Program-made: the position numbers and the translations under genes | Assembly (NCBI RefSeq): GCF_000019965.1 | Contig: NC_010571.1 | Coordinates: forward strand, 558,001 to 622,000 | From: Opitutus terrae PB90-1 | Lineage (GTDB): Bacteria > Verrucomicrobiota > Verrucomicrobiia > Opitutales > Opitutaceae | DNA: 64,000 nt | Direction: 5' to 3' | Shown here: positions 5,071-26,696 of the stretch, piece after piece | How positions within the stretch are numbered: position 1 is the stretch's first letter | Layout of the letters: every line of letters starts with the position of its first letter | The notes under the pieces: model-generated | The model's database searches: none | Seen by the model: only the letters and a program-made list of their open reading frames with translations | Told to the model about the DNA's origin: nothing

Positions 5071-5613
5071 TCAGTGGTGCGCCTTGTTGTGCAGCTCGGC
5101 GGCCTTCTTCTTGTCCCATTTGAAATGCTGGTCGGGCAGCGTGCCGCCGAGCTCGTAGAGCCGCTGCTTGTTGTTGACCATTTCGGCGCGGGTGTAGCCG
5201 GTCATCGTGTACTGCTGCTGCAGGAAAATCGCCTCCTCGGGACAAACCTCCTGGCACATGCCGCAGTAGATGCAGCGGAGCATGTCGATCTCGAACTCGC
5301 GTGGCGCGCGCTCGACGTGCGCGGTCGGCGCATCGGCGGCAATCTCGCCCGGCCAGATCCGGATCGCCTTCGGCGGGCAGACGAATTCGCACAACTGGCA
5401 GGAGACGCATTTCTCGCGGCCGTTCGGATCCTTCACCAGCGTGGGCACGCCGCGATAGCCGGGCGGGATTGCCGGCCGCTGCTCCGGATACTCCATCGTC
5501 TGCTTCTTGCGGACGAGATGGCGGAACGTGGTCTTCAGCCCGCCGAGGATTTGCGGGATGTAGGTGCGCTCGGCGAGAGTGAGCGGCTTACGTTCGACGG
5601 GGACGACGGGCAT
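5071..5613 (-). CDS. nuoI: NADH-quinone oxidoreductase subunit I, 2x[4Fe-4S]
   Basis: Ferredoxin-like subunit of the peripheral arm of complex I that carries electrons to NuoB. It has 180 residues and two classic motifs: CVSCQLCEFVCP and CIYCGMCQEVCP, each binding one [4Fe-4S] cluster. It starts MPVVPVERKPLTLAERTYIP at ATG 5613, 10 bp after the nuoH stop. The EEAIFL segment after the second motif is also typical. Confidence 0.97.
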   Translation of the reverse strand: MPVVPVERKPLTLAERTYIPQILGGLKTTFRHLVRKKQTMEYPEQRPAIPPGYRGVPTLVKDPNGREKCVSCQLCEFVCPPKAIRIWPGEIAADAPTAHVERAPREFEIDMLRCIYCGMCQEVCPEEAIFLQQQYTMTGYTRAEMVNNKQRLYELGGTLPDQHFKWDKKKAAELHNKAHH

Positions 5614-5623
5614 TGGGAAGGAG

Positions 5624-6868
5624 TTAGATTGTCGCAGCTTTCTGCGGCCGGAACATGAAGGCCAGGAACCCGAGCGTGGCCACGGCGATCACCGCGTAGG
5701 CGGGCAGCCCCAGCTGCAGGTCCTTCGCGGCGATGACCGCCGCGTAGAAAATGAGATTGGCGATGGAGAGCGGGAGAAGCTTGCGCCAGCCGATCTGCAT
5801 CACCTGGTCGTAGCGGAACCGCGGCAGCGTCCAGCGGACCCACATGAAGAAGAAGATCATCGCGAGGACCTTCGCGAGGAAGATGACGATCGACAACACG
5901 CCGAGCAGGAAGGGGTGGCTGGTGAGGTTCAGCCACTCGGCCAGCGTGGTGAGCGGGAGCCAGGGCAGCGGATTCCAACCGCCGCCGAAGAGCAGCATGA
6001 ACACCGCGGAACCCACGATCATGTGCGAATACTCCGCGACAAAGAACAGGCCCCACTTGAACGCGCCGTATTCGGTGTGGAAACTGCCGACAAGGTCCGC
6101 CTCCGACTCGATCGTGTCGAACGGCTGGCGATTCGTTTCGGCAAACAGCGCGACGAGGAAGATGAACGCGGACACCGGCATGTAGAAGCCGAACCAGAGT
6201 CCGTTGAGCTGCGGGAACGTGCCGCTCTGCATCTCGACCGCACGCGTGAAGCCCATCGTCGCCTCCGCGCCGGGCGTGTTGATCCAGAGGAAAACCGGCA
6301 GCACGGCGAGCGTCATCGAAAGCTCGTAGGAGATCAGCTGCGCCGAGGCGCGAATGCTCCCGAGGAACGGATACTTCGAATTCGAGGCCCAGCCGGCGAG
6401 GATCAGCGAGTAGACGCTGAGCGAGGCGACCGCAAACACGCCGAGGATGCCGATGTCGACCGGCGCGAGTCCGAGTGCGATCAACCGCCCCGCCTCGTCC
6501 AGGTAGGCGCCGAACGGCACGACGGTCACGGTCGTCAGCGCAGGGATCATCGCGAGGATCGGCGCCGCGATGAAGTAGAACTTGTTTACGTGTCCCGGCG
6601 TGGAGTCTTCCTTGAAGAGCATCTTGCCGCCGTCGGCCATGACGTGAAACAGGCCGAGCCGCTGCAGGAACCGGCCGAGGAACGGAATCCACCCGATCCA
6701 CGGCACGATGGCGCGGTTCGGCCCCGGACGATCCTGCACCCACGCCGCGACCTTGCGCTCCGCCATCGAGCAGATGCCCGCGATCGGGAAGATCACGAGG
6801 ATCACCGCCAGGCCCTTGAGCAGACCCTGGATGAGCGGGTGGAGGTTGAAATAGAAGTCAGCGATCAC
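5624..6868 (-). CDS. nuoH: NADH-quinone oxidoreductase subunit H
   Basis: Membrane subunit of complex I next to the quinone site. The family marks AERKVAAWVQDRPGPNRA, LFAETNRQPFD and ESEADLVGSFHTEY are all present. The start is unclear. GTG 6868 gives 414 residues starting VIADFYFNLHPLIQG, and a TTG at 6916 would add 16 residues but lies inside a palindromic element at 6887-6950. If that 64-bp element is removed, the ATG at 6980, which overlaps the nuoG stop as ATGA, comes into frame and gives MNALQLSIDV followed by LFLLPPVIADF. I infer that the element displaced the ancestral start. The rest of the gene is intact. Confidence 0.93.
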   Translation of the reverse strand: MIADFYFNLHPLIQGLLKGLAVILVIFPIAGICSMAERKVAAWVQDRPGPNRAIVPWIGWIPFLGRFLQRLGLFHVMADGGKMLFKEDSTPGHVNKFYFIAAPILAMIPALTTVTVVPFGAYLDEAGRLIALGLAPVDIGILGVFAVASLSVYSLILAGWASNSKYPFLGSIRASAQLISYELSMTLAVLPVFLWINTPGAEATMGFTRAVEMQSGTFPQLNGLWFGFYMPVSAFIFLVALFAETNRQPFDTIESEADLVGSFHTEYGAFKWGLFFVAEYSHMIVGSAVFMLLFGGGWNPLPWLPLTTLAEWLNLTSHPFLLGVLSIVIFLAKVLAMIFFFMWVRWTLPRFRYDQVMQIGWRKLLPLSIANLIFYAAVIAAKDLQLGLPAYAVIAVATLGFLAFMFRPQKAATI

Positions 6869-15263: not shown

Positions 15264-16580
15264 ATGAGTCTGGCGCATCGGCCCTCCCCTTCGGTCGTGG
15301 TTGCCGGGCTGCTCGCGGTCGTGCTGTGCGTCGGCGGCTGCGGCCGGCCCGCCGCGCCGCGCGCGAGTGATGCCCGCTCGGCCGCTGCGCCACGCCCGGT
15401 GACAGACCTGAACGCTTTCCTGCCGCAGCCGATCGGCGCCGCGATCGGCCGGCCACCGTGGATCGGCCATGTCAATACGGTCGACCTCGATCGCGACGGA
15501 CTGCTCGACGTGATCTTCTGCGAATCGCAGGAAAACCAGGTGTTGTGGATCCGGCAGTCGCCGCGCGGCGTGTTCACCGAAAAACTCCTCGCCTCGGACA
15601 TGAGCGCGCCGGTGCACGTCGAAAGCGCGGACATGGACGGCGACGGCGATCTCGATGTGATCGTCTCGAGCATGGGCGTGGTTTTCCCCGACAACGACCG
15701 GATCGGCACCGTGTTCGTGCTGGAAAACGATGGCCGGCAGAATTTCACGCCGCATGCCGTGCTCGAGCACACCGCGCGCGTGGTCGACGCCCGCGCCGCC
15801 GACCTCAACCGCGACGGGAAAATGGACCTCGTGCTCGGGCAGTTCGGCTACGATCAGGGCGAAATCAGCTGGCTCGAGCGCACCGGTCCGTGGGAGTTCC
15901 AGCGACACGTGCTGCTCGATCTCTCCGGCGCGATCAATGTCTGCGTCGACGACTACAATGCGGACGGCCACCTCGATATCGTGGCGCTCATCTCGCAGCA
16001 GTGGGAGGAGATCTACTATTTCGAGGGCGACGGCCGCGGCGGTTTCAGCACGAAGCGCATGTGGGGCTCGACCAACGAGGACTACGGCAGCAGCGGACTC
16101 ACGTCGGCGGATCTGAATCGCGACGGCCGGCCCGATCTCGTTTACACGAACGGCGACGGCTTCGGCCCCGCCGCCACGCCTGGGCCGCGGCCGTGGCACG
16201 GCGTGCAGTGGTTCGAGAACAAGGGCGACGGCAACTTCCGCTTTCACCGGATCGCCAACTACCAGGGCGCGTACAGCCCGATCGTCGCCGACGTCGACGG
16301 TGATGGCGCCATGGATATCGTGGCGTCGTCGGCCTACGCCGATTGGAACAACACGAATCGCAGCGTCGTTTCGCTTGTCTGGTTCCGCAACGACGGCCGG
16401 ATGAACTTCGAGCCGCGCATCCTGGCGAAGGAGCCGAAGGATCTGATCACACTCGCCGCGGGCGATTTCGACGGCAACGGCCAGGTGTCGCTCGTGACCG
16501 GCGGGTTCTACATTTATCCGCCCTACGATTCGATGGGTCGCATTGTCCTGTGGCGGAAGCAGCCGCAGCCCACCCGATGA
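15264..16580 (+). CDS. FG-GAP/VCBS repeat lipoprotein
   Basis: Exported beta-propeller-like protein, 438 residues, start ATG 15264 (MSLAHRPSPSVVVAGLLAVV). The signal peptide ends in a lipobox, VGGC, so it is probably anchored in a membrane. About six to seven repeats carry calcium-loop motifs, such as DLDRDGLLDVIF, DMDGDGDLDVIV, DLNRDGKMDLVL, DYNADGHLDIVAL and DLNRDGRPDLVY. It is clearly paralogous to the protein encoded at 28454-29767: both have IRQSPR, ARAADxNxDG and a PxPGPRPWHG or PEPGHG segment. Its stop overlaps the start of the TPR gene (ATGA). Molecular function is unknown; ligand binding or a scaffold role at the cell surface is possible. Confidence 0.85.
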   Translation: MSLAHRPSPSVVVAGLLAVVLCVGGCGRPAAPRASDARSAAAPRPVTDLNAFLPQPIGAAIGRPPWIGHVNTVDLDRDGLLDVIFCESQENQVLWIRQSPRGVFTEKLLASDMSAPVHVESADMDGDGDLDVIVSSMGVVFPDNDRIGTVFVLENDGRQNFTPHAVLEHTARVVDARAADLNRDGKMDLVLGQFGYDQGEISWLERTGPWEFQRHVLLDLSGAINVCVDDYNADGHLDIVALISQQWEEIYYFEGDGRGGFSTKRMWGSTNEDYGSSGLTSADLNRDGRPDLVYTNGDGFGPAATPGPRPWHGVQWFENKGDGNFRFHRIANYQGAYSPIVADVDGDGAMDIVASSAYADWNNTNRSVVSLVWFRNDGRMNFEPRILAKEPKDLITLAAGDFDGNGQVSLVTGGFYIYPPYDSMGRIVLWRKQPQPTR

Positions 16581-18034
16581 AAACAAAACTCTGGATCGTG
16601 TTCGCCGTCCTGCTGCTGGCGGGGCTCGGCGTCGGTGGCTGGTGGTGGGTGCGCGCGGGCGCGGAGCAGGCGGTCGTCGCCACGGCACTGCCCGCGTTGC
16701 CCGATCTCACCAACGTTCTCGATCCGCTCCGCGAACGCATCGCGTCGGCCGACGCGCGAGCCACCTCCCGGTTCAGCGCGCGCACGGGTCTGGCGGAACT
16801 GAGCCGGCTCTATCACGCGAATGGTTTCCTCGAGGAAGCAATGCGCTGCTACGACGGACTCGAGCAGCTCGAGCCCAACGAACCGCGCTGGCCGCATTTG
16901 CACGCGACGATCGTCGCCGGCTATGGGGAGGTCGACCGCGCGCTGACGCTCTGGCGGCGGGTCGAGGCGCTCGCCCCCGATTACATCCCCGCGCGACTGC
17001 GCATCGCCGACTGCGAGCTCAAGGCCGACCGGCCGACGAAAGCCGCCGCGGAATATGCCGAGGTGCGGAAGATCCGGCCGGATGATCGCTATGCGCTGCT
17101 GGGCCTTGCCCGGATCGACTATGACGCTAGCCGTTGGGAGCAGGCGCGGGAAAAACTCGAAGCGCTCGTCGCGCAGACGAATTTCGAACTGGGTTATGAT
17201 TTGATCGTCAGCGTTTATGAAAAGCTCGGACAGCACGAGCGCGCCGAGTCGATTCGCGGCGCCGCGAAAGCCTTCGGCACGTATCGCGATCCGCCGGACC
17301 CGTGGGTCGACGAGCTGATGGCGGAGTGCTACGATCCCTACCGGCTCTCGCTCACGGCGGGCGTGCTCGCGCGCAGCGGCGGCCAGGACAAGGCGCTGCA
17401 GTTGCTCGAGCGGGCGGTGGAGCTCGCGCCGGCGGATATTTCCTCGCGGTTTCAGCTCGGCAACCTGCACGTCGAGATGGGCAATTTCTCGGCTGGCCGC
17501 GAAGCGCTGGAGACGTGCACGCGGCTCGCGCCGGAGTTTTCTGACGGCTGGGCGCGATTGAGCGCGCTGCAGGCACAGCTCGGTGAAATGTCCGCGGCCG
17601 AGCGCACGCTCGCGACCGGTCTGCAGAACTGCCCCCAGTCGCCGGCGCTACACTTGATGCGCGCGCGCAATCTCCGGCAGGCCGGTCGGACAGACGAGGC
17701 GATCAACGAGTACATGATTTCCATCCGGCTGCGGCCGAACGAGCCCGAGCCCTATATGGAGCTTGGCAACACGCTCATCGCCGCGGGGCGGGAGGAGGAA
17801 GGCGTCGAGCAAATCCGAGCCGCTCTGGTGGCCGAGCCGGCGGACCCGATGGCGCTCAGCGTGCTGGCGTTTCGCGCGATCCAGCTCCGCGACGAGGCAG
17901 AGGCGCAGCAATGGATGACCCGCGTGGAGAATCAGCCCCGCGTGAAGCCCGAGCAGCGCCAGCACCTGCGGGACCTCTATCGCCAGCAATTCGGCCACGA
18001 TTTTCCATCAAGGGGTCAGGCCGCTAATCGTTAA
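16577..18034 (+). CDS. Membrane-anchored TPR protein
   Basis: Tetratricopeptide-repeat protein of 485 residues from ATG 16577 (MKTKLWIVFAVLLLAGLGVG). One N-terminal membrane helix (about residues 5-23) is followed by an exported domain of about ten TPR-like helical pairs. Paralogues are encoded at 26697-28457 and 58642-60078. All three share ANG near residue 95, RWP, LAPDY and a DPWxxEL-C-P motif between two repeat blocks (here DPWVDELMAECYDP). It overlaps the FG-GAP lipoprotein gene by 4 bp. The last residues RGQAANR and the stop TAA are encoded by the terminal repeat of the neighbouring transposon, so the native C-terminus was probably replaced. Confidence 0.88.
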   Translation: MKTKLWIVFAVLLLAGLGVGGWWWVRAGAEQAVVATALPALPDLTNVLDPLRERIASADARATSRFSARTGLAELSRLYHANGFLEEAMRCYDGLEQLEPNEPRWPHLHATIVAGYGEVDRALTLWRRVEALAPDYIPARLRIADCELKADRPTKAAAEYAEVRKIRPDDRYALLGLARIDYDASRWEQAREKLEALVAQTNFELGYDLIVSVYEKLGQHERAESIRGAAKAFGTYRDPPDPWVDELMAECYDPYRLSLTAGVLARSGGQDKALQLLERAVELAPADISSRFQLGNLHVEMGNFSAGREALETCTRLAPEFSDGWARLSALQAQLGEMSAAERTLATGLQNCPQSPALHLMRARNLRQAGRTDEAINEYMISIRLRPNEPEPYMELGNTLIAAGREEEGVEQIRAALVAEPADPMALSVLAFRAIQLRDEAEAQQWMTRVENQPRVKPEQRQHLRDLYRQQFGHDFPSRGQAANR

Positions 18035-19013
18035 GTCGATCTCGGCGGGTCGCCAGATAGACCCGGACAGAGCTGGCGCTGCCCATCTTGAGTTGCTCGG
18101 CGATCCAAGAGGTGGGAGCTCCTCGTTCGCGTCTCAATCGGCGAGCGATTGCCACCTTCCAAGGGGCGCTCTTGGCGTCACGTTCCACATCATCCGCCGT
18201 CTTACCCACGTTAGCCAGGGCATCGCTCAACCCCTGCTGCCAACGCGCCGTTTGCATTTCACGCAGTTCGTCACGCGGAAGCCCGGGCGCCAGTGCCAGA
18301 TGAGCGAAGTCCTTTGCTACTGCGCGGCGCCAGGCCAAAGAGCCAATCGCCCAGCCGCGAGACATTTCGGTGAATCCCATCCGCTCCTGCGCGATGCGAT
18401 CGCCCGCCAGATCGACCAAATGACGAACGTAGTCCCGCCAGTGCTCGGGAGTTTCCTCGTATCCGTTCGCGGCCAGCCAGTCGCGCGCGACCAACCACGC
18501 GGGCCGTGCGGGCTTCAGGAAACGCGCCAAACTGCTCCAACGAAATGCCGCAACCTGCCCCGCAGCGACAATTCCCGCTCGTACCGGATTGAGGTGAATG
18601 TAGTCCACGACTCGAGCCAGCGACGCGGCATCTTCGACGAGCAAAGCTTGGTATCGACCTTGGAAAAGATGCCCGCGTTCTGAACGGAAACGATTGAACC
18701 GCGTCGCGAAAGTCGTCTGCAGCCAGTGCATTCCCTCCACGAGATTCGCTTCCGGCGTCTCAAGGGCGAGGTGGTAGTGGTTGCGCATGATTGCGAATGC
18801 GTGCAAGCGCCACCGGTACTGCTCACACGCCTCCGCCAGCGTCGCCTCGAACGACTGCGCCGTTGCGGGTGTCTCAAACACATCTCGTCGGTAGTTGCCG
18901 CGGTTGATAACGTGGTAGATCGCACCTTCGTACTGGACTCGCAATCGCCTCGCCATGCCGCCATTACGCTGATGATGTGGGAGCTGTCAATTAACGACTA
19001 GCGGCCTGACCCC
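18012..19013. mobile_element. RAYT element with 23-bp terminal inverted repeats
   Basis: About 1.0 kb. The left end at 18012-18034 begins ggggtcaggccgctaatcgt. The right end at 18991-19013 is its reverse complement with one mismatch (22 of 23). The only gene is the transposase at 18024-18956. The outer 14 bases (ggggtcaggccgct) are identical at both ends. No target duplication is evident. Just outside the right end, ccccattccgcgct is repeated directly (19010-19023 and 19024-19037 approximately). Confidence 0.85.
18024..18956 (-). CDS. REP-associated tyrosine transposase (Y1 HUH family)
   Basis: Single-strand transposase related to IS200/IS605 TnpA, 310 residues. It starts MARRLRVQYEGAIYHVINRG. 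The HUH metal site is His60-x-His62 in RNHYHL. The likely catalytic tyrosine is Tyr119 in DYIHLNPVRAG. GHLFQGRYQALLVED is typical of RAYT proteins. A C-terminal extension ends in a helix-turn-helix-like segment (SWIAEQLKMGSASSVRVYL) that may bind DNA. Its stop codon (18026-18024) lies in the left terminal repeat and overlaps the 3' end of the convergent TPR gene by 11 bp. The frame is intact, so it may be active. Confidence 0.93.
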   Translation of the reverse strand: MARRLRVQYEGAIYHVINRGNYRRDVFETPATAQSFEATLAEACEQYRWRLHAFAIMRNHYHLALETPEANLVEGMHWLQTTFATRFNRFRSERGHLFQGRYQALLVEDAASLARVVDYIHLNPVRAGIVAAGQVAAFRWSSLARFLKPARPAWLVARDWLAANGYEETPEHWRDYVRHLVDLAGDRIAQERMGFTEMSRGWAIGSLAWRRAVAKDFAHLALAPGLPRDELREMQTARWQQGLSDALANVGKTADDVERDAKSAPWKVAIARRLRRERGAPTSWIAEQLKMGSASSVRVYLATRRDRLND

Positions 19014-19035
19014 ATTCCGCGCTCCCCATTCCGCG

Positions 19036-22000
19036 CTAGCGTGGGGCTTCGATGGTGAGCGTCGCACTCACGTCACGCACAGCGTGCTCGGTCGTGCGGC
19101 CGGACGGCCAGCGGATATGGATGCGGCGCGGCGGATTCGTTGCAGGATAGCCAAAGAAACACGCGGCGCTCGATTGTGAGGAGTAGCCGGCGCCCGCCTG
19201 AATCTCGGTCGTCTGGTTGGAGCCATCCGCCAGCTCGAGCACAACCCGCGCGCCGATTGCATCCGGATTACCCGCGGCACCGCGCAGCGCGACCCGCAGC
19301 GACTTGCGGCCTACGACGCCCGGATTCCGAAACGCGAGGGCGGTGTCGTTATTGCGCGAGATGAGAAAATCCGGCCAGCCGTCCTCGTTCAGGTCGAGCG
19401 TCACCAGCGCCTTCGCGTCGCCAGGAACGAGCAGCCGGCTCTCCGCCGGCGGCACGAGCGTGAATCCGCCGCGGCCGTCGCCGCGCAACAGCTGGCTCAC
19501 GCCGCCGTCGAAATGCCCGACCAACGGCACCGGCGCATAGGAGTTCTGCACCCCGTAGAGATCAGCCTTGCCGTCCCCATCGAAATCCCCTGCCGCCATG
19601 CCCTGCAGCGGCGCGATCTGCGCGAGTCGCGGCAGCGGCGAGAACACGAATCGACCGTCCGGCTGGCTGAGGAACACTCCACTGCGCAGCTCTGTCGCGG
19701 CGAACCGCTGCGCCGTCGCGAGCCGGTCCTCGCCGAGGATTTGGTCGAGCGTCGCGCGCGCATAGAGATCCTGCTTTGGGATCCGTCGCAGCAGCGTCGG
19801 GGTTTGCGCGCCGAGTTCCTTGCGCACACGACGCGGATACAGCCGGTCGCCTTCGTAATACGCCTCTACCAGCTGCGGTTCCGCACGGTCGGCAAACCGG
19901 CCGAAGAAAATCAGCGCCGGCTGCTGCAGGCTCGCCTGGTATTGCGTGTTCAGCCCCACGTTGCCCGCAGCGTAGTCGAGCCGCCCATCGCCGTTGAAAT
20001 CCGCCGCCGCGAGCGAGGTCCACCAGCCTGTCCCCGCCGCCGCAAAACCTGCCTCAACCGAGCGGTCCTCAAAACGCCGACCTTGGTCGTTCCGCCAAAA
20101 CCGAACCCCGCCCCACTCCAGCGCGACAAGCAGGTCGATCCACCCGTCGCCGTCCACGTCGCTCCACAGCGCGGAGCTGACCATCCCGATTTCGCGCAGT
20201 CCGGGCGCGAGCGCGTCAGTCACGTTTTCGAACCGAACTTCGCCGCCCGTGCTGTGGTTCGCGAGCAGTGCGCTCTGCGGCGCGAGCGGATAGTGACCGG
20301 GAATCACCCGCCCGCCGATAAACACATCGAGCCGTCCGTCCCGATCGAAATCGGCCGCCGCCGCCGCACCCGCACTGATCGGCAGCGCTGGCAAAGCCGC
20401 GGGATCGGCGGCAGCAAACCGCGCCTGCCCATCGTTGAGTAGCAGCGTCGGCTGATAACCGGCCGCGCCCGCCGGCAGGTTGTTGCCCGCTCGCGTGAGC
20501 AGCACGTCGCTGTCGCCATCGCCGTCCACATCAAATGCCAGGACCGGGCCATCGTCGGCCGCGCCCGCTTTTGCCGCGAGCGGCTGCGGCAGCGTGTAGC
20601 GTTGGGCTGTCGTGCGCGCCATGACCCGCGCCGGGTCGAGCGTCGTGCCGCCGAGCAGCACGTCGTCCTGTGCGTCACCGTCGAGATCCGCGACCACGAG
20701 CGCGGGCCCACGCCGATTGAAACGCGTCGGGATCAACGGCTGTGATTCGCGTTCGTCGACGGGTTCCTCACGTGAGCGAACCGCGAGGCCCGCTGCGGCT
20801 GAAACCTCGCTAAATCCGTAGGGCGGCCGCTCGCCGGCAGCCGGAAGCCTTGCTCGTTGTTCGCGGCCGGCGGCAAGCGCCGGCCCTACGACTACACCAG
20901 CGCCCGGCTCGGTGATCGTGAACCGCTGATCCACCGGCAGATCCTCAAACACCTGCGTCGCCCCGCTCGGCCACGCGACCATGAGCCGACGAATGCGTGC
21001 CGCGTCGCCCAATCCGAAGTGAACGACCGGTTCGCTGCTCGAGAGATAGCCGCGTGCGAGCACAAGCTCCCGGACCTGCACGCCCGCGTCGGTCTCGAGC
21101 CGCACGTTGGCCCCGACGCCAAATCGATTCGAGCGGGTGCCGCGCAGCGCAATCACCACGCGATGGCCCGTGGTCGAGTCGTTCCGCGCCACGGTCGCAC
21201 TGCTCTGGTAGTTGCCGAACACCGGATCGAGATCCCCGTCTCCATCGAGATCGCCAAAAGCGGAGCCGAAACTCACGCCTTTGTGGTCCAGCCCCCACGC
21301 CACGCCGACGTTCTCAAACGCGACCTCGCCCAGGTTCCGGTAGGCGCGATTTGCTTCCGCGAGCACCGGGCTGGCGCGGATGATTCGCCGTGATTCGTTC
21401 ACGTTCTCCGCCGCCATCGTGCGCTCGAGCAGATCGACGTTGTGATACTCGCGGACCATGCCGTTGGTGACGTGCAGGTCGAGCCGGCCGTCGTTGTCGA
21501 GGTCCTCGAGCCGCGGCGACCAGGTCCAGTCCGTCGCCGGAAATCCCGCGAGAAACACCGCCTCGCGCATCCGTCCAAGCCCGGTGTTCAGATAAAGCGC
21601 GTTGCGCAGATACTGCGGCGTGGCGGTGACGTTTTCGTTGTTGTCCTTGATCAGCGTGCGCGAGCTCGCCATCCCGCGGTGATCCTTTTCGTGGGTCGAA
21701 CCGGCCATGTCGGCGACGAAGAAGTCGAACAATCCATCGTTATCGACGTCGCCGAAGTCCGCGCCCATCGCGTAATACGGCGTGTGCGGCACGACGTCGC
21801 CGAGCCGGTTGGTAAATCCCGCGGCCGCGGGATCGCCGTTGTTGTGGTAGAGCGAATCAGGCACGCCGTAGTCGTTCGCCACGTAAAGATCGGGCCAGCC
21901 GTCCTGATCGTAGTCCCACCATGTAGCCGAGTGGCCCGAGCTCTCGCCGCGAATCCCGGCGCGCTCCGTCACGTTCTCGAAGGTGCCATTACCCTTGTTG

Positions 22001-22836
22001 TGGAACAGGTAGTCGCGCTGGCCGTTCGGATGCGCGGTCGCGCTGAGCATGTTCGTCTGCACGTAGACGTCGAGCCAGCCATCGCGGTCGTAATCGCAGA
22101 ACGCCCCCATGCCGCTCGCATCCGTGACCGCCAGCCCGCGCGCCGCCGCCTCTTCCTTGAACGTGCCGTCGCCCTGATTGATGTAGAGCAGATTGGGCGC
22201 CGCGAACCGGCAGAGATACAGATCGAGCCGGCCGTCGTTGTTCACGTCGGCAAACGTCGCGCCCTGCGTCCACGGATTCGCGCCCGCACTGTCGCTGCCG
22301 ACGAGCCGCTTTGCCCAGGCCAGACCTTCATCGAGCACCCCGCCGCCGCCCGCAAGTCCCGCCTTCTCCGTCACGTCCTCGAACTTCCAGTCGCCAAGAT
22401 TGCGAAATAGCCGCGACGCGTCGGCTTTGCTCACGATGAACAAATCGGGCCGGCCGTCGTTGTCGTAGTCGCCAATCGCCACGCCGGTGCCCATCGCACC
22501 AAACGTGAGTTCCTGATACAGTTCGCCCCACATCCGCGGATCCGCGTAACGGTTTTCCGCCACGACGCCGGTTTGCTCCGGCGCGAGCGTGGTGAACAAC
22601 GTTCGTCCGCCCGGCTGCGAGCGTGGCGCAAGCGGCACCGCAGTGATCTCGGGTGCAGCTTCGGCATGGGCAAACGATCCGCCGACGAACGCCGCGGCCG
22701 CACTCAACAACACTGAAAGCGCAATGCCGCCTCGGGTAGAGCGCGCCCTCAACGCGCTTCTCCTTCGATTGGCGCGCCAGCGAAAGCACGGATCGCCTGG
22801 CAGCTGTCGCGGGTAAACTGGAGGTTGCTCGCTCAC
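19036..22836 (-). CDS. Giant FG-GAP / ASPIC-UnbV protein (CRTAC1-like)
   Basis: Exported protein of 1266 residues made of two similar halves, each a run of FG-GAP/VCBS calcium loops and an ASPIC-UnbV domain. Loops include DYDNDGRPDLF, DYDRDGWLDVYV, DYDQDGWPDLYV and DLDGDGDLDPVF, then in the second half DFDRDGRLDVFI, DVDGDGWIDLLV and DFDGDGKADLY. The first ASPIC-UnbV domain (about 560-650) has RGTRSNRFGVGA and WPSGATQVF; the second is at the C-terminus with WPSGRTTEH. GTG 22836 overlaps the stop of the upstream paralogue (GTGA). The N-terminal 30 residues before the signal helix partly derive from a repeat. VGPALAAGRE in the linker after the first ASPIC domain is encoded by a repeat that also occurs in nuoG. 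Function unknown. Confidence 0.88.
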   Translation of the reverse strand: MSEQPPVYPRQLPGDPCFRWRANRRRSALRARSTRGGIALSVLLSAAAAFVGGSFAHAEAAPEITAVPLAPRSQPGGRTLFTTLAPEQTGVVAENRYADPRMWGELYQELTFGAMGTGVAIGDYDNDGRPDLFIVSKADASRLFRNLGDWKFEDVTEKAGLAGGGGVLDEGLAWAKRLVGSDSAGANPWTQGATFADVNNDGRLDLYLCRFAAPNLLYINQGDGTFKEEAAARGLAVTDASGMGAFCDYDRDGWLDVYVQTNMLSATAHPNGQRDYLFHNKGNGTFENVTERAGIRGESSGHSATWWDYDQDGWPDLYVANDYGVPDSLYHNNGDPAAAGFTNRLGDVVPHTPYYAMGADFGDVDNDGLFDFFVADMAGSTHEKDHRGMASSRTLIKDNNENVTATPQYLRNALYLNTGLGRMREAVFLAGFPATDWTWSPRLEDLDNDGRLDLHVTNGMVREYHNVDLLERTMAAENVNESRRIIRASPVLAEANRAYRNLGEVAFENVGVAWGLDHKGVSFGSAFGDLDGDGDLDPVFGNYQSSATVARNDSTTGHRVVIALRGTRSNRFGVGANVRLETDAGVQVRELVLARGYLSSSEPVVHFGLGDAARIRRLMVAWPSGATQVFEDLPVDQRFTITEPGAGVVVGPALAAGREQRARLPAAGERPPYGFSEVSAAAGLAVRSREEPVDERESQPLIPTRFNRRGPALVVADLDGDAQDDVLLGGTTLDPARVMARTTAQRYTLPQPLAAKAGAADDGPVLAFDVDGDGDSDVLLTRAGNNLPAGAAGYQPTLLLNDGQARFAAADPAALPALPISAGAAAAADFDRDGRLDVFIGGRVIPGHYPLAPQSALLANHSTGGEVRFENVTDALAPGLREIGMVSSALWSDVDGDGWIDLLVALEWGGVRFWRNDQGRRFEDRSVEAGFAAAGTGWWTSLAAADFNGDGRLDYAAGNVGLNTQYQASLQQPALIFFGRFADRAEPQLVEAYYEGDRLYPRRVRKELGAQTPTLLRRIPKQDLYARATLDQILGEDRLATAQRFAATELRSGVFLSQPDGRFVFSPLPRLAQIAPLQGMAAGDFDGDGKADLYGVQNSYAPVPLVGHFDGGVSQLLRGDGRGGFTLVPPAESRLLVPGDAKALVTLDLNEDGWPDFLISRNNDTALAFRNPGVVGRKSLRVALRGAAGNPDAIGARVVLELADGSNQTTEIQAGAGYSSQSSAACFFGYPATNPPRRIHIRWPSGRTTEHAVRDVSATLTIEAPR
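20861..20891. repeat. In-frame copy of the 29-bp palindromic repeat in an ASPIC-UnbV gene
   Basis: On the minus strand it begins gtagggccggcgcttgccgc and is identical over 29 bases to 7845-7875 in nuoG. It is read in the same frame and gives VGPALAAGRE. It lies in the variable linker between the first ASPIC-UnbV domain and the second propeller, where an insertion should be tolerated. Confidence 0.85.
22734..22765. repeat. Repeat unit within the 5' end of an ASPIC-UnbV gene
   Basis: The sequence gggtagagcgcgccctcaac with the following gcgcttctcc is an imperfect palindrome around gcgcgccctcaacgcgc. It encodes part of the basic stretch SALRARSTRGG just before the signal helix, so the N-terminus of this protein is partly repeat-derived, or the true start is nearer the helix. 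Confidence 0.45.
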
Positions 22837-25800
22837 GGCGCCGAGATCGTGAGTGTGGTTGCGCCGGGTTCAACCTCGTGCGTCGAACTCGCGCCCGACG
22901 GCCACCGGACTTGCACCCGTCGCAGCGGTTGGTCGTCAGGAGAAGCAAGGAACAGCGTCGCGGTGGACTGGCTCAGCCAGCCTTCGCCCGCATGCACCTC
23001 GGCGATCTGCCGTGCACCCTTCGCGAGCTCCGCGGTCACGCGCGCGCCAATCGCCGCAGGATTTCCGACAGGACCGCGAAGGCGCACTGCGATGGCATGC
23101 CGACCGCCGACTGAGCTATTGCGAAAGGCCAGCGTCGCCGTGTTGTTCCGGGTAATCAGAAAATCCGGCCGGCCACCGCCCCGCAGGCCGATCAGCGCGA
23201 GCGCTTTCGCGTCGCCCGGCACGATGAGCCCGCTCTCCGCCTGCGACACCGTCACGAATCCGCCGCGCCCGTCGCCGCGCAGCAGCTGGCTCAGTCCGCC
23301 ATCGAAGCGACCCACCAGCGGCACCGGCGCATAGGAGTTCTGCACGGCGTAAATGTCCGCGTGGCCGTCGCCATCGAAATCTCCGGCGACCATTCCCTGC
23401 AGCGGTGCGATCTGCGCCAGCCGCGGCAGCGGCGCAAATCGGAACCGGCCATCCGGCTGGCTGAGGAAGACACCGCTGCGCAGCTCCGTCGCGGCAAACG
23501 ACCGCGCCGCCTGCAACCGCTCTTCCCCAAAGATCTCGCCGAGCGTCGCGCGAGCGTAGACGTCGTTGCGTGGAAACCGGCGCATGATCGACGGAATGCG
23601 CGTCGCAAACTCGTTCCGGCTTCGCCGCGGATAAAGCCGGCCTTCCTCGTAGTAGCCCTCCAGCAACAGCGGCGGTCCGCTTTCAGCGAACGCGCCGTAG
23701 AACAACCGCGCGGGCGCCTCCGCGGTCGCGCGATACGGCGTGTTCAGCCCGACATTGCCGACGACGTAATCGAGCCGGCCATCACCGTTGAAATCCGCGG
23801 CCGTCAGCGAGGTCCACCACCCAGCGCCGGCCGCGGCGAAGCCCAGCCGCTCCGACCCGTCGTCGAAGCGCCGGCCTGCGTCGTTGCGGAAACATTTCAC
23901 GGGGCCCCAGTCGAGCGCGACCAACAGGTCGATCCAGCCATCGTCATCGACATCCGTCGCCAGCGCCGAGGTCACCATTCCGATCTCCTTCAGCCCCGGC
24001 GCCCACGCGTCGGTCACGTCAGCGAAGCCCTGCCAGCCCCCGCCGACGCTGCCCCGATTGCGCAGTAACGCACTCTGCGGAGTCAGCGGATACTGTCCGG
24101 GAATCGATCGCGCGCCGAGAAACACATCGAGTTGCCCGTCGCGATCGAAATCAGCGGCCACCGCGGCGCCGGCGTTGATCGGCAGCACGGGCAGCGCGGT
24201 AGCGTCTGCCGCGAGGAAAACGCCCTGACCGTTGTTCAGCAACAGCCGCGGCTGGTAATCCGCCGCACCGGCCGGACGCGTCGTGCCCGACCTCGTGAGC
24301 AGAAGATCGTTCGCGCCATCGCCATTCACATCGATCGCGAGCACGGGCCCGTCGACGAGCGGTGGGGGCGCAGCGATGTTTGCTGTTTTCGCTTCAACGA
24401 ACTTTCCGTCCGCGCCACCCACGAGCAGCCGCGCAGCGTCGCGCGTGGTGCCGCCAAGCACCACATCGTCGCGCCCGTCGCCGGTCAGGTCGGCGACCGC
24501 GAGCGACGGACCGCGCCGGTTCAGCCGCAGCGGCAGAAACGGCTGTTCCGAGGTGACTGGGATCGTTTCTTCGCGGGCTTCGAGCGCGAAGCCGATCTCG
24601 GCGGAGACGTCAGCAAAAGTCTTGTCCGTTTTCGCCTGGCTCGTTGAGTCCGGACCGATGTCGGCGACCCCGGCTACGACGTCCGCCGGTTCCGTGATCG
24701 TCAGTCGCTGATCCGCCTTCACCCTTTCAAACCTCTGCACAGCTCCACTGGGCCAGTTCACGGTTAGCCGCTGAACGATCGCGTCGTCGCCTAATCCGAA
24801 ATGCAGGATCGGTTCGCTACTGGAGTTGTAGCCGCGCGCGAGCACGAGTTGCCGCACCTGCCGGCCCGCGGCGGTCTCGATCTGCACGACGGCGCCGACG
24901 CCGAATCGATTCGAACGCGTGCCGCGAAGCGCGACAATCAAACGATGCCCATCGGCGCTGTCGTTGCGCAACACCGACGGGCCCTCGAGATAATTGCCGT
25001 AAACCAGGTCGAGATCGCCGTCGCCATCGAAGTCGGCCAACACCGATCCGAAGCTCACTCCTTTGCGGTCGAGCCCCCACTCCGGCCCGACCGGCACGAA
25101 CTGCAGATCACCGAGATTGCGGAACGCGAGGTTCGTTTCGACGAGCACCGGACTCGCTTTCATCACACGGGCACCTTCGGCCAGGCTCTCGCTCGCGGAC
25201 ATCCGCTGGTTCAGGTCAACGTTGTGCAGCTCACGAACCATCCCGTTGGTGACGTACAGGTCGAGCCGGCCATCGTTGTCGAGATCCTCGAACCGCGGCG
25301 ACCAGGTCCAGTCCGTCGCCTCGAGGCCCGCGAGATGCGCCGCCTCGAGCATCCGGCCCGTGCCCGTGTTTACATAGAGCACGTTCCGCATGGTTTGCGG
25401 GGCCCCCGCCGCACTTTCGTCCATGCCCGTGAGCAGCGAGCGGATTTTCGCCATGCCGCGCATGTCGGCGGCATGCGAGGTGGTCGCCATGTCTGCGACG
25501 AACAGGTCGAGCCTACCGTCGTTGTTCACGTCGCCGAGATCCGAGCCCATCGAGGAGTGCGGCGTGTGCGGCACGACCGCGTCGAGCCGGTTGGTGAACG
25601 TGCCGTCGCGGTTGTTGTGATAGAGCGAGTCCGGTACCGCGAAGTCGTTCGCGACATAGAGGTCGGGCCAGCCGTCCTGGTCGTAGTCCCACCACGTCGC
25701 CGAATGCGCCTGATTCTCGCCGATGATTCCCGCGCGCTCCGTCACATCGACGAATTTTCCGTCGCCCGCATTGTGGAACAGATAGTCGCGCTGTCCGCTG

Positions 25801-26543
25801 GGCTTCGTCTGTCCGTCGAGGATGTTCGTGTAGACATACACATCGAGCCAGCCGTCGCGGTCGTAATCGCAGAACGCTGCCATGCCGCTCGCGTCGACGA
25901 TCGCCAGCCCGCGCGCCGCCGCTTCCTCCTTGAACGTGCCGTCGCGCTGGTTGACGTAGAGGAGATTCGGCGCGTTGAACCGGCACACGTAGAGATCGAG
26001 CCAGCCGTCGTTGTTCACATCCGCCCACGTCGCGCCCTGCTTCCATGCCTCGTCCGGAGGCGCATCGCCCTGGCCGACGCTGCGCTTCAACCAAGCGACC
26101 CCTTCCGCCAGCACGCTTTTGGGCGGCAGCAGCCCGGCGCGTTCGGTCACGTCCTCGAATTTCCAGCCGCCGAGGTTGCGAAACAGCTTCGAAGTCTCCG
26201 TCTTGCTGACGACGAACAGGTCAGGCCGGCCATCGTTGTCGTAATCGCCGACCGCGACGCCGGTGCCGACCGCGCCGAACTTGAATTCCTCGCGGCGTTC
26301 CCACCACATCTTCGGATCGGCGTAGTTGTTCGCCACCACCACTCCGGTCTGCTCCGGCGGGAGCGAGGCGAACATCGTGCCGCCGCGCGGTCCCGAGCGC
26401 GGTGCGAGTGGTTCGGCGATCGGTTCGGTGGTGGCTGCACGCACCCCGGACACCGCGGCGATCAAGACGATCAGCCGGCCCGCGTCGGAGAGACGGCGGG
26501 CAACAACACGGGCGCGATCGGGGTAACTCGCGAAGGCAGGCAT
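22833..26543 (-). CDS. Giant FG-GAP / ASPIC-UnbV protein (CRTAC1-like)
   Basis: Exported protein of 1236 residues from ATG 26543 (MPAFASYPDRARVVARRLSD); signal helix about 23-37. First half: EQTGVVV at 65, then loops DYDNDGRPDLF (100), DVNNDGWLDLYV (175), DYDRDGWLDVYV (227), DYDQDGWPDLYV (287), DVNNDGRLDLFV (338), DLDNDGRLDLYV (420) and DFDGDGDLDLVY (504), ending in an ASPIC-UnbV domain at about 530-618. The second half repeats this plan and ends with another ASPIC-UnbV domain at about 1145-1236. It is a close paralogue of the gene at 19036-22836, with which it overlaps by 4 bp, and of 54735-58316. It follows a TPR gene after 153 bp. Biochemical role unknown. Confidence 0.88.
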   Translation of the reverse strand: MPAFASYPDRARVVARRLSDAGRLIVLIAAVSGVRAATTEPIAEPLAPRSGPRGGTMFASLPPEQTGVVVANNYADPKMWWERREEFKFGAVGTGVAVGDYDNDGRPDLFVVSKTETSKLFRNLGGWKFEDVTERAGLLPPKSVLAEGVAWLKRSVGQGDAPPDEAWKQGATWADVNNDGWLDLYVCRFNAPNLLYVNQRDGTFKEEAAARGLAIVDASGMAAFCDYDRDGWLDVYVYTNILDGQTKPSGQRDYLFHNAGDGKFVDVTERAGIIGENQAHSATWWDYDQDGWPDLYVANDFAVPDSLYHNNRDGTFTNRLDAVVPHTPHSSMGSDLGDVNNDGRLDLFVADMATTSHAADMRGMAKIRSLLTGMDESAAGAPQTMRNVLYVNTGTGRMLEAAHLAGLEATDWTWSPRFEDLDNDGRLDLYVTNGMVRELHNVDLNQRMSASESLAEGARVMKASPVLVETNLAFRNLGDLQFVPVGPEWGLDRKGVSFGSVLADFDGDGDLDLVYGNYLEGPSVLRNDSADGHRLIVALRGTRSNRFGVGAVVQIETAAGRQVRQLVLARGYNSSSEPILHFGLGDDAIVQRLTVNWPSGAVQRFERVKADQRLTITEPADVVAGVADIGPDSTSQAKTDKTFADVSAEIGFALEAREETIPVTSEQPFLPLRLNRRGPSLAVADLTGDGRDDVVLGGTTRDAARLLVGGADGKFVEAKTANIAAPPPLVDGPVLAIDVNGDGANDLLLTRSGTTRPAGAADYQPRLLLNNGQGVFLAADATALPVLPINAGAAVAADFDRDGQLDVFLGARSIPGQYPLTPQSALLRNRGSVGGGWQGFADVTDAWAPGLKEIGMVTSALATDVDDDGWIDLLVALDWGPVKCFRNDAGRRFDDGSERLGFAAAGAGWWTSLTAADFNGDGRLDYVVGNVGLNTPYRATAEAPARLFYGAFAESGPPLLLEGYYEEGRLYPRRSRNEFATRIPSIMRRFPRNDVYARATLGEIFGEERLQAARSFAATELRSGVFLSQPDGRFRFAPLPRLAQIAPLQGMVAGDFDGDGHADIYAVQNSYAPVPLVGRFDGGLSQLLRGDGRGGFVTVSQAESGLIVPGDAKALALIGLRGGGRPDFLITRNNTATLAFRNSSVGGRHAIAVRLRGPVGNPAAIGARVTAELAKGARQIAEVHAGEGWLSQSTATLFLASPDDQPLRRVQVRWPSGASSTHEVEPGATTLTISAP

Positions 26544-26696
26544 CGCGACGGAAAGCACGGAGTTCCGGCCGGTGAGTCAAGGCCGCGCCAAACGGCGCGC
26601 GGTGCCGGTCGGCCAGCGGTTCGGTGGCCTACGGCACATCCATGGCGGAAAAGCCGGTTTGATTCGCTCCGGCTCCCCGACTCAGCCGTACCTCGT

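Follow-up and report, generated by a model that had tools for sequence, protein, structure and literature searches.

In a 64,000-nt window of the Opitutus terrae genome, an element with a Y1 (HUH) transposase gene lies between two convergent genes. The TPR-repeat gene on its left (positions 16577-18034 of the window, plus strand) has its last 7 codons and stop inside the element. On its right, the stop codon of a convergent FG-GAP/ASPIC-UnbV gene (19036-22836, minus strand) abuts a tandem duplication. Next to this gene lies a second large minus-strand gene (22833-26558); the two are very alike by eye, and the FG-GAP/ASPIC-UnbV domains were found in the first. The transposase is encoded by an intact open reading frame of 310 amino acids (18024-18956, minus strand) and matched Y1_Tnp (PF01797) with an E-value of 3.4e-16. 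In an alignment of 26 proteins N59, H62, and Y119 were invariant and H60 was nearly invariant. By arithmetic from the reading frame, the HUH motif H60-Y61-H62 (in NHYH) was placed at 18771-18779 and the catalytic tyrosine Y119 (in YIHLNP) at 18600-18602, both on the minus strand. An earlier sequence-only reading had described the frame and the residues His60, His62, and Tyr119 as intact, and the alignment agrees with it.

The AF2 model of the transposase (pLDDT 86.9, pTM 0.70) had its best PDB match in 4er8, TnpAREP bound to a REP hairpin (E 1.2e-6 over 163 columns; TM 0.73 by target length and 0.41 by query length), followed by IS200-type transposases. The C-terminal part was modeled with three terminal helices (265-278, 282-289, and 294-308), and no HTH family was recognized by Pfam at E ≤ 1 in the 26 proteins. 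Against the NCBIfam models, the protein scored 72 bits for REP_Tyr_transpos, below the curated cut-off of 80, and 30.7 bits for IS200, far below the cut-off of 55. Its tyrosine motif Y119IHLNP does not follow the Y---Q motif of IS200/IS605. Three more Y1_Tnp matches are present in the O. terrae genome (L004-L006; G000:C1:3173458, 2530483, and 5390221, with 37.9, 29.8, and 22.5 bits, the last below the cut-off of 23); none is close to the transposase of the element.

The element spans 18012-19013 by its inverted arms (18012-18034 and 18991-19013), which match in 22 of 23 positions, as the sequence-only reading had reported. Because related elements from Opitutales share the end consensus A-N-GGGG-TCA with an A at -6, positions 18010 and 19015 are the more fitting limits of the element. 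The terminal inverted repeat at the transposase 3' end (AAGGGGTCAGGCCGCTAATCGTTAA, 18010-18034, plus strand) thus includes the A-N extension and contains both the RGQAANR-TAA of the TPR gene and the transposase stop; the one at the transposase 5' end (ATGGGGTCAGGCCGCTAGTCGTTAA, 18991-19015, minus strand) was drawn from the arm match together with the relatives' consensus. GGGGTCAG is present at both ends, which are long terminal inverted repeats (TIRs) unrelated to REPs and carry the GGGGWSAS motif of TIRtrons. No REP-like hairpin was marked at either end (folding z -1.4 to -2.1). A feature absent from the sequence-only reading is a perfect tandem duplication of a 14-bp unit (CCCCATTCCGCGCT, two copies, 19010-19037), which consists of the last 4 bases of the element end (CCCC) plus flank and places AGCGCGGAATGGGG twice at the transposase 5' end. 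Other copies of the 23-bp ends were sought in vain. When up to 3 mismatches were allowed, the end had no third site in the window (and 0 hits in 100 shuffles) and no further place in the one-contig genome of 5,957,605 bp, where the shorter end ANGGGGTCAGGCC occurred nowhere except in the two arms. The element is thus present as a single copy in a genome without solo ends, and the O. terrae copy gives no sign of recent activity.

The influence of the element on the TPR gene was read from the overlap and from homologous proteins. The TPR frame, whose final letters read FGHDFPS-RGQAANR-TAA, closes at 18034; tail to tail, it shares 11 bp (18024-18034) with the transposase frame within the element end, exactly as had been noted from the sequence. 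In 14 of 19 homologous TPR loci the stop lies 2-9 residues past the shared FG motif; in the O. terrae protein it lies 12 residues past it, and the last 7 of these are encoded by the element. The suspected rewriting of the TPR C-terminus is thereby upheld. The other 5 loci are less clear: L088 and L095 stop at or just beyond F, L096 has FR and then six residues, L093 continues, and L087 is out of register. A general role of the TIRs as gene ends was considered and rejected as a rule, since the excess of frames ending within a TIR in the Opitutales set (7/44 ends versus 9/216 control windows, long ORFs) was missing from the second set (4/89 versus 18/428 control windows, among the matches listed).

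Three syntenic relatives have the neighbor-gene junction free of the element, with gaps of 33 bp (G034), 45 bp (G054), and 121 bp (G001). G034 preserves the whole arrangement of an upstream FG-GAP gene, the TPR gene, and the convergent ASPIC gene, the last aligned to residue 1,264 of 1,266, and its 33 bp separate the two stops. For G001 and G054, the alignment of the convergent homologue ends near residue 1,170 of 1,266, and their gaps are therefore not base-homologous. None of the three relatives has GGGGTCA in the 400 bp that follow the TPR stop. One congener was searched and contained only a decayed transposase fragment of 50 residues at another place. Judged from the shorter TPR tails of the homologues and from the three gaps lacking GGGGTCA, the element is a lineage-specific insertion among the relatives seen. 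The same element at the same site with diverged ends, named beforehand as the mark of an old fixed copy, was looked for in relatives and not seen.

The transposase had matches in 65 of 95 related genomes. The first set held 70 Opitutales loci including the O. terrae element, and 69 after L062 (no stop) was left out. The second held 68 of 80 loci from a scan of genome contigs in which at least 585 stretches matched; 5 loci taken as already in the first set, 6 partial matches, and L193 were left out. Inverted ends scoring at least 15 were found in 55 of 69 Opitutales elements compared with 13 of 600 cross-element end pairs, and in 50 of 68 second-set elements, among the matches listed, compared with 8 of 400. 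Record titles with such ends, among the matches listed, name Verrucomicrobiota, Kiritimatiellota, Thermodesulfovibrionia, Desulfobacteria, Geobacteraceae, Gamma- and Betaproteobacteria, Aminicenantes, Omnitrophota, Bipolaricaulis, Planctomycetota, and one Actinomycetes MAG, a spread in which many records are MAGs and may be mis-binned. The element of a Rheinheimera genome (L212) is identical to that of a Paraglaciecola MAG (L214), as are 1.87 kb of flank; this points to mis-binning, not to transfer.

The Opitutales consensus A-N-GGGG-TCA was derived from 50 anchored elements of the 55 (5 unanchored ones were left out); 48 of these 50 had the A at -6 at one end, and 48 at the other. The same pattern was shared by the ends of 101 elements from both sets and many phyla (A in 76 and 69, TCA nearly fixed), a count from which L063 and L214, a copy of L212 with its flanks, were omitted. 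Inward of the core the picture differs. Over the inner 16 nt the two ends of one element were 90% identical, compared with 40% across elements (n = 101) and about 26% by chance. End identity increased with protein identity, from 0.37-0.42 at 20-49% to 0.59 at 50-59%, 0.70 at 60-69%, and 0.95 for proteins at least 90% identical (5 pairs). Since the arms stay matched while end identity rises with protein identity, the ends co-diverge with their transposase. Among the arm mismatches of the 101 elements, G.T was not in excess over A.C on the coding strand (43 versus 37, p 0.58), so pairing of the arms within one strand is not supported. The Mantel correlations did not discriminate which part of the protein reads the ends (r 0.20 for residues 1-130 and 0.20 for 131-305, each p 0.001); the partial values were 0.06 and 0.07, from data with at least 2 mis-anchored elements and one duplicate.

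The tandem duplication found in O. terrae recurs at the ends of relatives. Direct repeats of at least 12 bp with a period of at most 90 were counted within 90 bp of an end, and windows from the same loci served as controls. In the Opitutales set, repeats occurred at 25 of 120 ends (20 of 60 elements) compared with 6 of 508 control windows, or 9 of 592 with a looser control. For the second set, among the matches listed, the values were 32 of 110 ends (26 of 57 elements) and 11 of 701. Tandem duplications were thus about 18 times as frequent at the ends as in control DNA, with the O. terrae copy among the carriers. The 57 runs, 41 of them full tandem copies, had periods of 10-80 bp, and their inner limits varied between 0 and +73 relative to the T of TCA. 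The core was crossed by 43 runs, whereas 7 were confined to the outside of the element and 0 to its interior. Single run boundaries are approximate, a few anchors (including L008 and L010) sitting on the outer repeat. Cutting and repair at the ends may have produced the duplications as a side effect. A rival origin, replication slippage at the long inverted repeats without any action of the transposase, has only a little less than an even chance in our estimation: varying periods and inner limits are what slippage would yield, whereas the clustering of the runs at the outer edge, mostly across the core and never wholly inside, argues against it. These end-linked duplications are a measurable footprint for any mechanism to explain.

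Near-identical copies at unrelated sites were found in the relatives G006 and G010; the O. terrae genome is without any. G006 holds three copies, 97.9, 91.0, and 91.1% identical over 1,040-1,046 bp, and G010 holds two that are 92.7% identical over 1,055 bp, with a third at a contig edge (94% over 897 bp). No flank similarity was detectable over about 500 bp on each side, either between the three G006 copies or between the first two G010 copies. For several copies, the homology blocks run end to end and stop at the inverted repeats. With 91-98% identical copies in unrelated flanks in two genomes, the little-studied group of TIR-flanked Y1 elements looks mobile as a unit, as far as can be read from the comparison of draft genomes in which several copies lie near contig ends. 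G010 also has four solo ends (L253-L256) of 25 nt with 0-2 mismatches and differing flanks; the 0.6-kb stretches read around them contain no transposase. Two 93% copies in G020 adjoin one another; the 220-bp match between their flanks arises where the compared stretches overlap, and the pair may be a local duplication. In G005 a repeat of about 130 bp (L104:12013-12139) occurs in several dozen copies with about 93-99% identity, is partly inverted-symmetrical, has no GGGGTCA ends, and is perhaps a MITE or REPIN-like family.

Empty sites in relatives, which the sequence-only reading had advised looking for, were obtained in part. The three syntenic relatives lack the element, but no base-exact empty site was found around the elements in G051, G005, G006, and G010, because flank synteny was too poor. 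One candidate in G006 was rejected. There, a 986-bp segment is duplicated at 97% identity on the same contig (L111:1502-2487 and 5168-6153), and one copy ends at the element. In the element-free copy, homology breaks off 13 bp before GGGG is reached, and no copy of the other flank exists, so that it is not a clean empty site. The segment presumably belongs to an RHS/YD-repeat gene, as which it reads. Among plasmid and phage records, 14 and 1 matched, respectively, none over more than 80% of the query.

The multicopy relatives bear on the possibility that the O. terrae transposase is an old domesticated gene, retained for a host function, with the matched ends as binding sites that do not serve movement. 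The single copy with its open frame in a genome without another copy or solo end would suit such a gene, and class 2 TnpAY1 proteins are treated in the literature as probably domesticated. We nevertheless consider it unlikely, given that the element is missing from three syntenic relatives, that the congener has only a decayed fragment elsewhere, and that related elements are multicopy with unrelated flanks. Very improbable is a REPtron, that is, a RAYT whose ends resemble REPs and which propagates REP sequences instead of its own copies: the REP_Tyr_transpos match at 72 bits, the TnpAREP fold, and the solo ends of G010 speak for it, whereas the score is below the cut-off of 80, neither end has a marked hairpin, and the end is not dispersed in its own genome.

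Our preferred explanation, which we regard as probable, is an autonomous TIRtron of about 1,006 bp (18010-19015) with symmetrical ends and one Y1/HUH transposase of TnpAY1 subclass 2.1 (TIRYT). It inserted into the short gap between the two convergent genes in the O. terrae lineage, and its end now acts as the last 7 codons and stop of the TPR gene. The transposase would recognize the fixed core ANGGGGTCA together with an element-specific inner stretch and would cut single-stranded DNA at the core through Y119. The arms would stay matched because one protein has to read both of them, or because one arm pairs with the other. The flank-plus-end tandem duplications, here and in many relatives, would result when cut ends break and are copied again. 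We extend this only tentatively, as a rather doubtful generalization, to the TIR-flanked Y1 elements at large. They might form a widespread autonomous mobile class, unlike IS200/IS605 or REP/RAYT, with the constant ANGGGGTCA core and a rapidly evolving inner stretch identical at both ends, in which one-ended cutting and re-copying stacks flank-plus-end copies and rewrites the tails of adjacent genes. The multicopy relatives with sharp ends provide concrete elements for testing mobility, and the TPR case indicates how such an end can turn into the C-terminus and stop codon of a gene.

Among known systems, the element fits the TIRtron/TIRYT kind and, by its motifs, TnpAY1 subclass 2.1. The paper by Di Nocera, De Gregorio, and Rocco (2013, PMC3733652) names Y1 transposases with terminal inverted repeats TIRYT and their loci TIRtrons, with the motif GGGGWSAS; the Y1 gene between long TIRs and GGGGWSAS at a set distance are common to the element here. 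It also describes solo or grouped repeats in some genomes and mentions O. terrae for GTAG repeats. A later count puts its TIRtron examples at 26 (PMC6006769). The sequence-only reading had called the element a RAYT. Its intact, packaged Y1 gene stands, and that reading rightly singled out mobility as the point to pursue; a strict REP-associated identity was rejected on the lack of a REP-like hairpin, the score of 72 against 80 bits, and the separate status already given to TIRYT/TIRtron in PMC3733652.

Subclass 2.1 (Quentin et al., 2018, PMC6006769, Table 1) has the motif set NHVH/NH[YF]H, W[EQ]/FQ, and YIELNP/Y[IV]HLNP, and the NHYH, FQ, and YIHLNP found here correspond to NH[YF]H, FQ, and Y[IV]HLNP. 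The long C-terminal tail and the lack of a REP are also shared. The protein has 310 residues compared with a subclass median of 238, and the subclass tail is reported with an HTH (Bac_DnaA_C, HTH_23, or HTH_28), whereas here the model shows three terminal helices and Pfam recognized no HTH family. Evidence for mobility is lacking according to that survey, and no demonstration of movement of TIRtron/TIRYT elements was found in literature titles or abstracts. Within-genome copies averaged 49% identity in the survey, compared with 91-98% in two genomes here. With RAYT/REPtrons (the group of E. coli TnpAREP, PDB 4er8), the element shares the HUH/Y1 core and the nearest solved fold; it differs in having no REP hairpins, no dispersal of its ends in the genome, and ends that are symmetrical inverted repeats. 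The TnpA of IS200/IS605 shares the HUH/Y1 chemistry and fold, but these elements have subterminal hairpins and no terminal inverted repeats. New here is the A-N-GGGG-TCA end pattern across 101 elements, with an inner stretch matched within and different between elements; the available part of PMC3733652 contains neither this within/between contrast for some 100 elements nor the A at position -6 nor the flank-plus-end tandem duplications.
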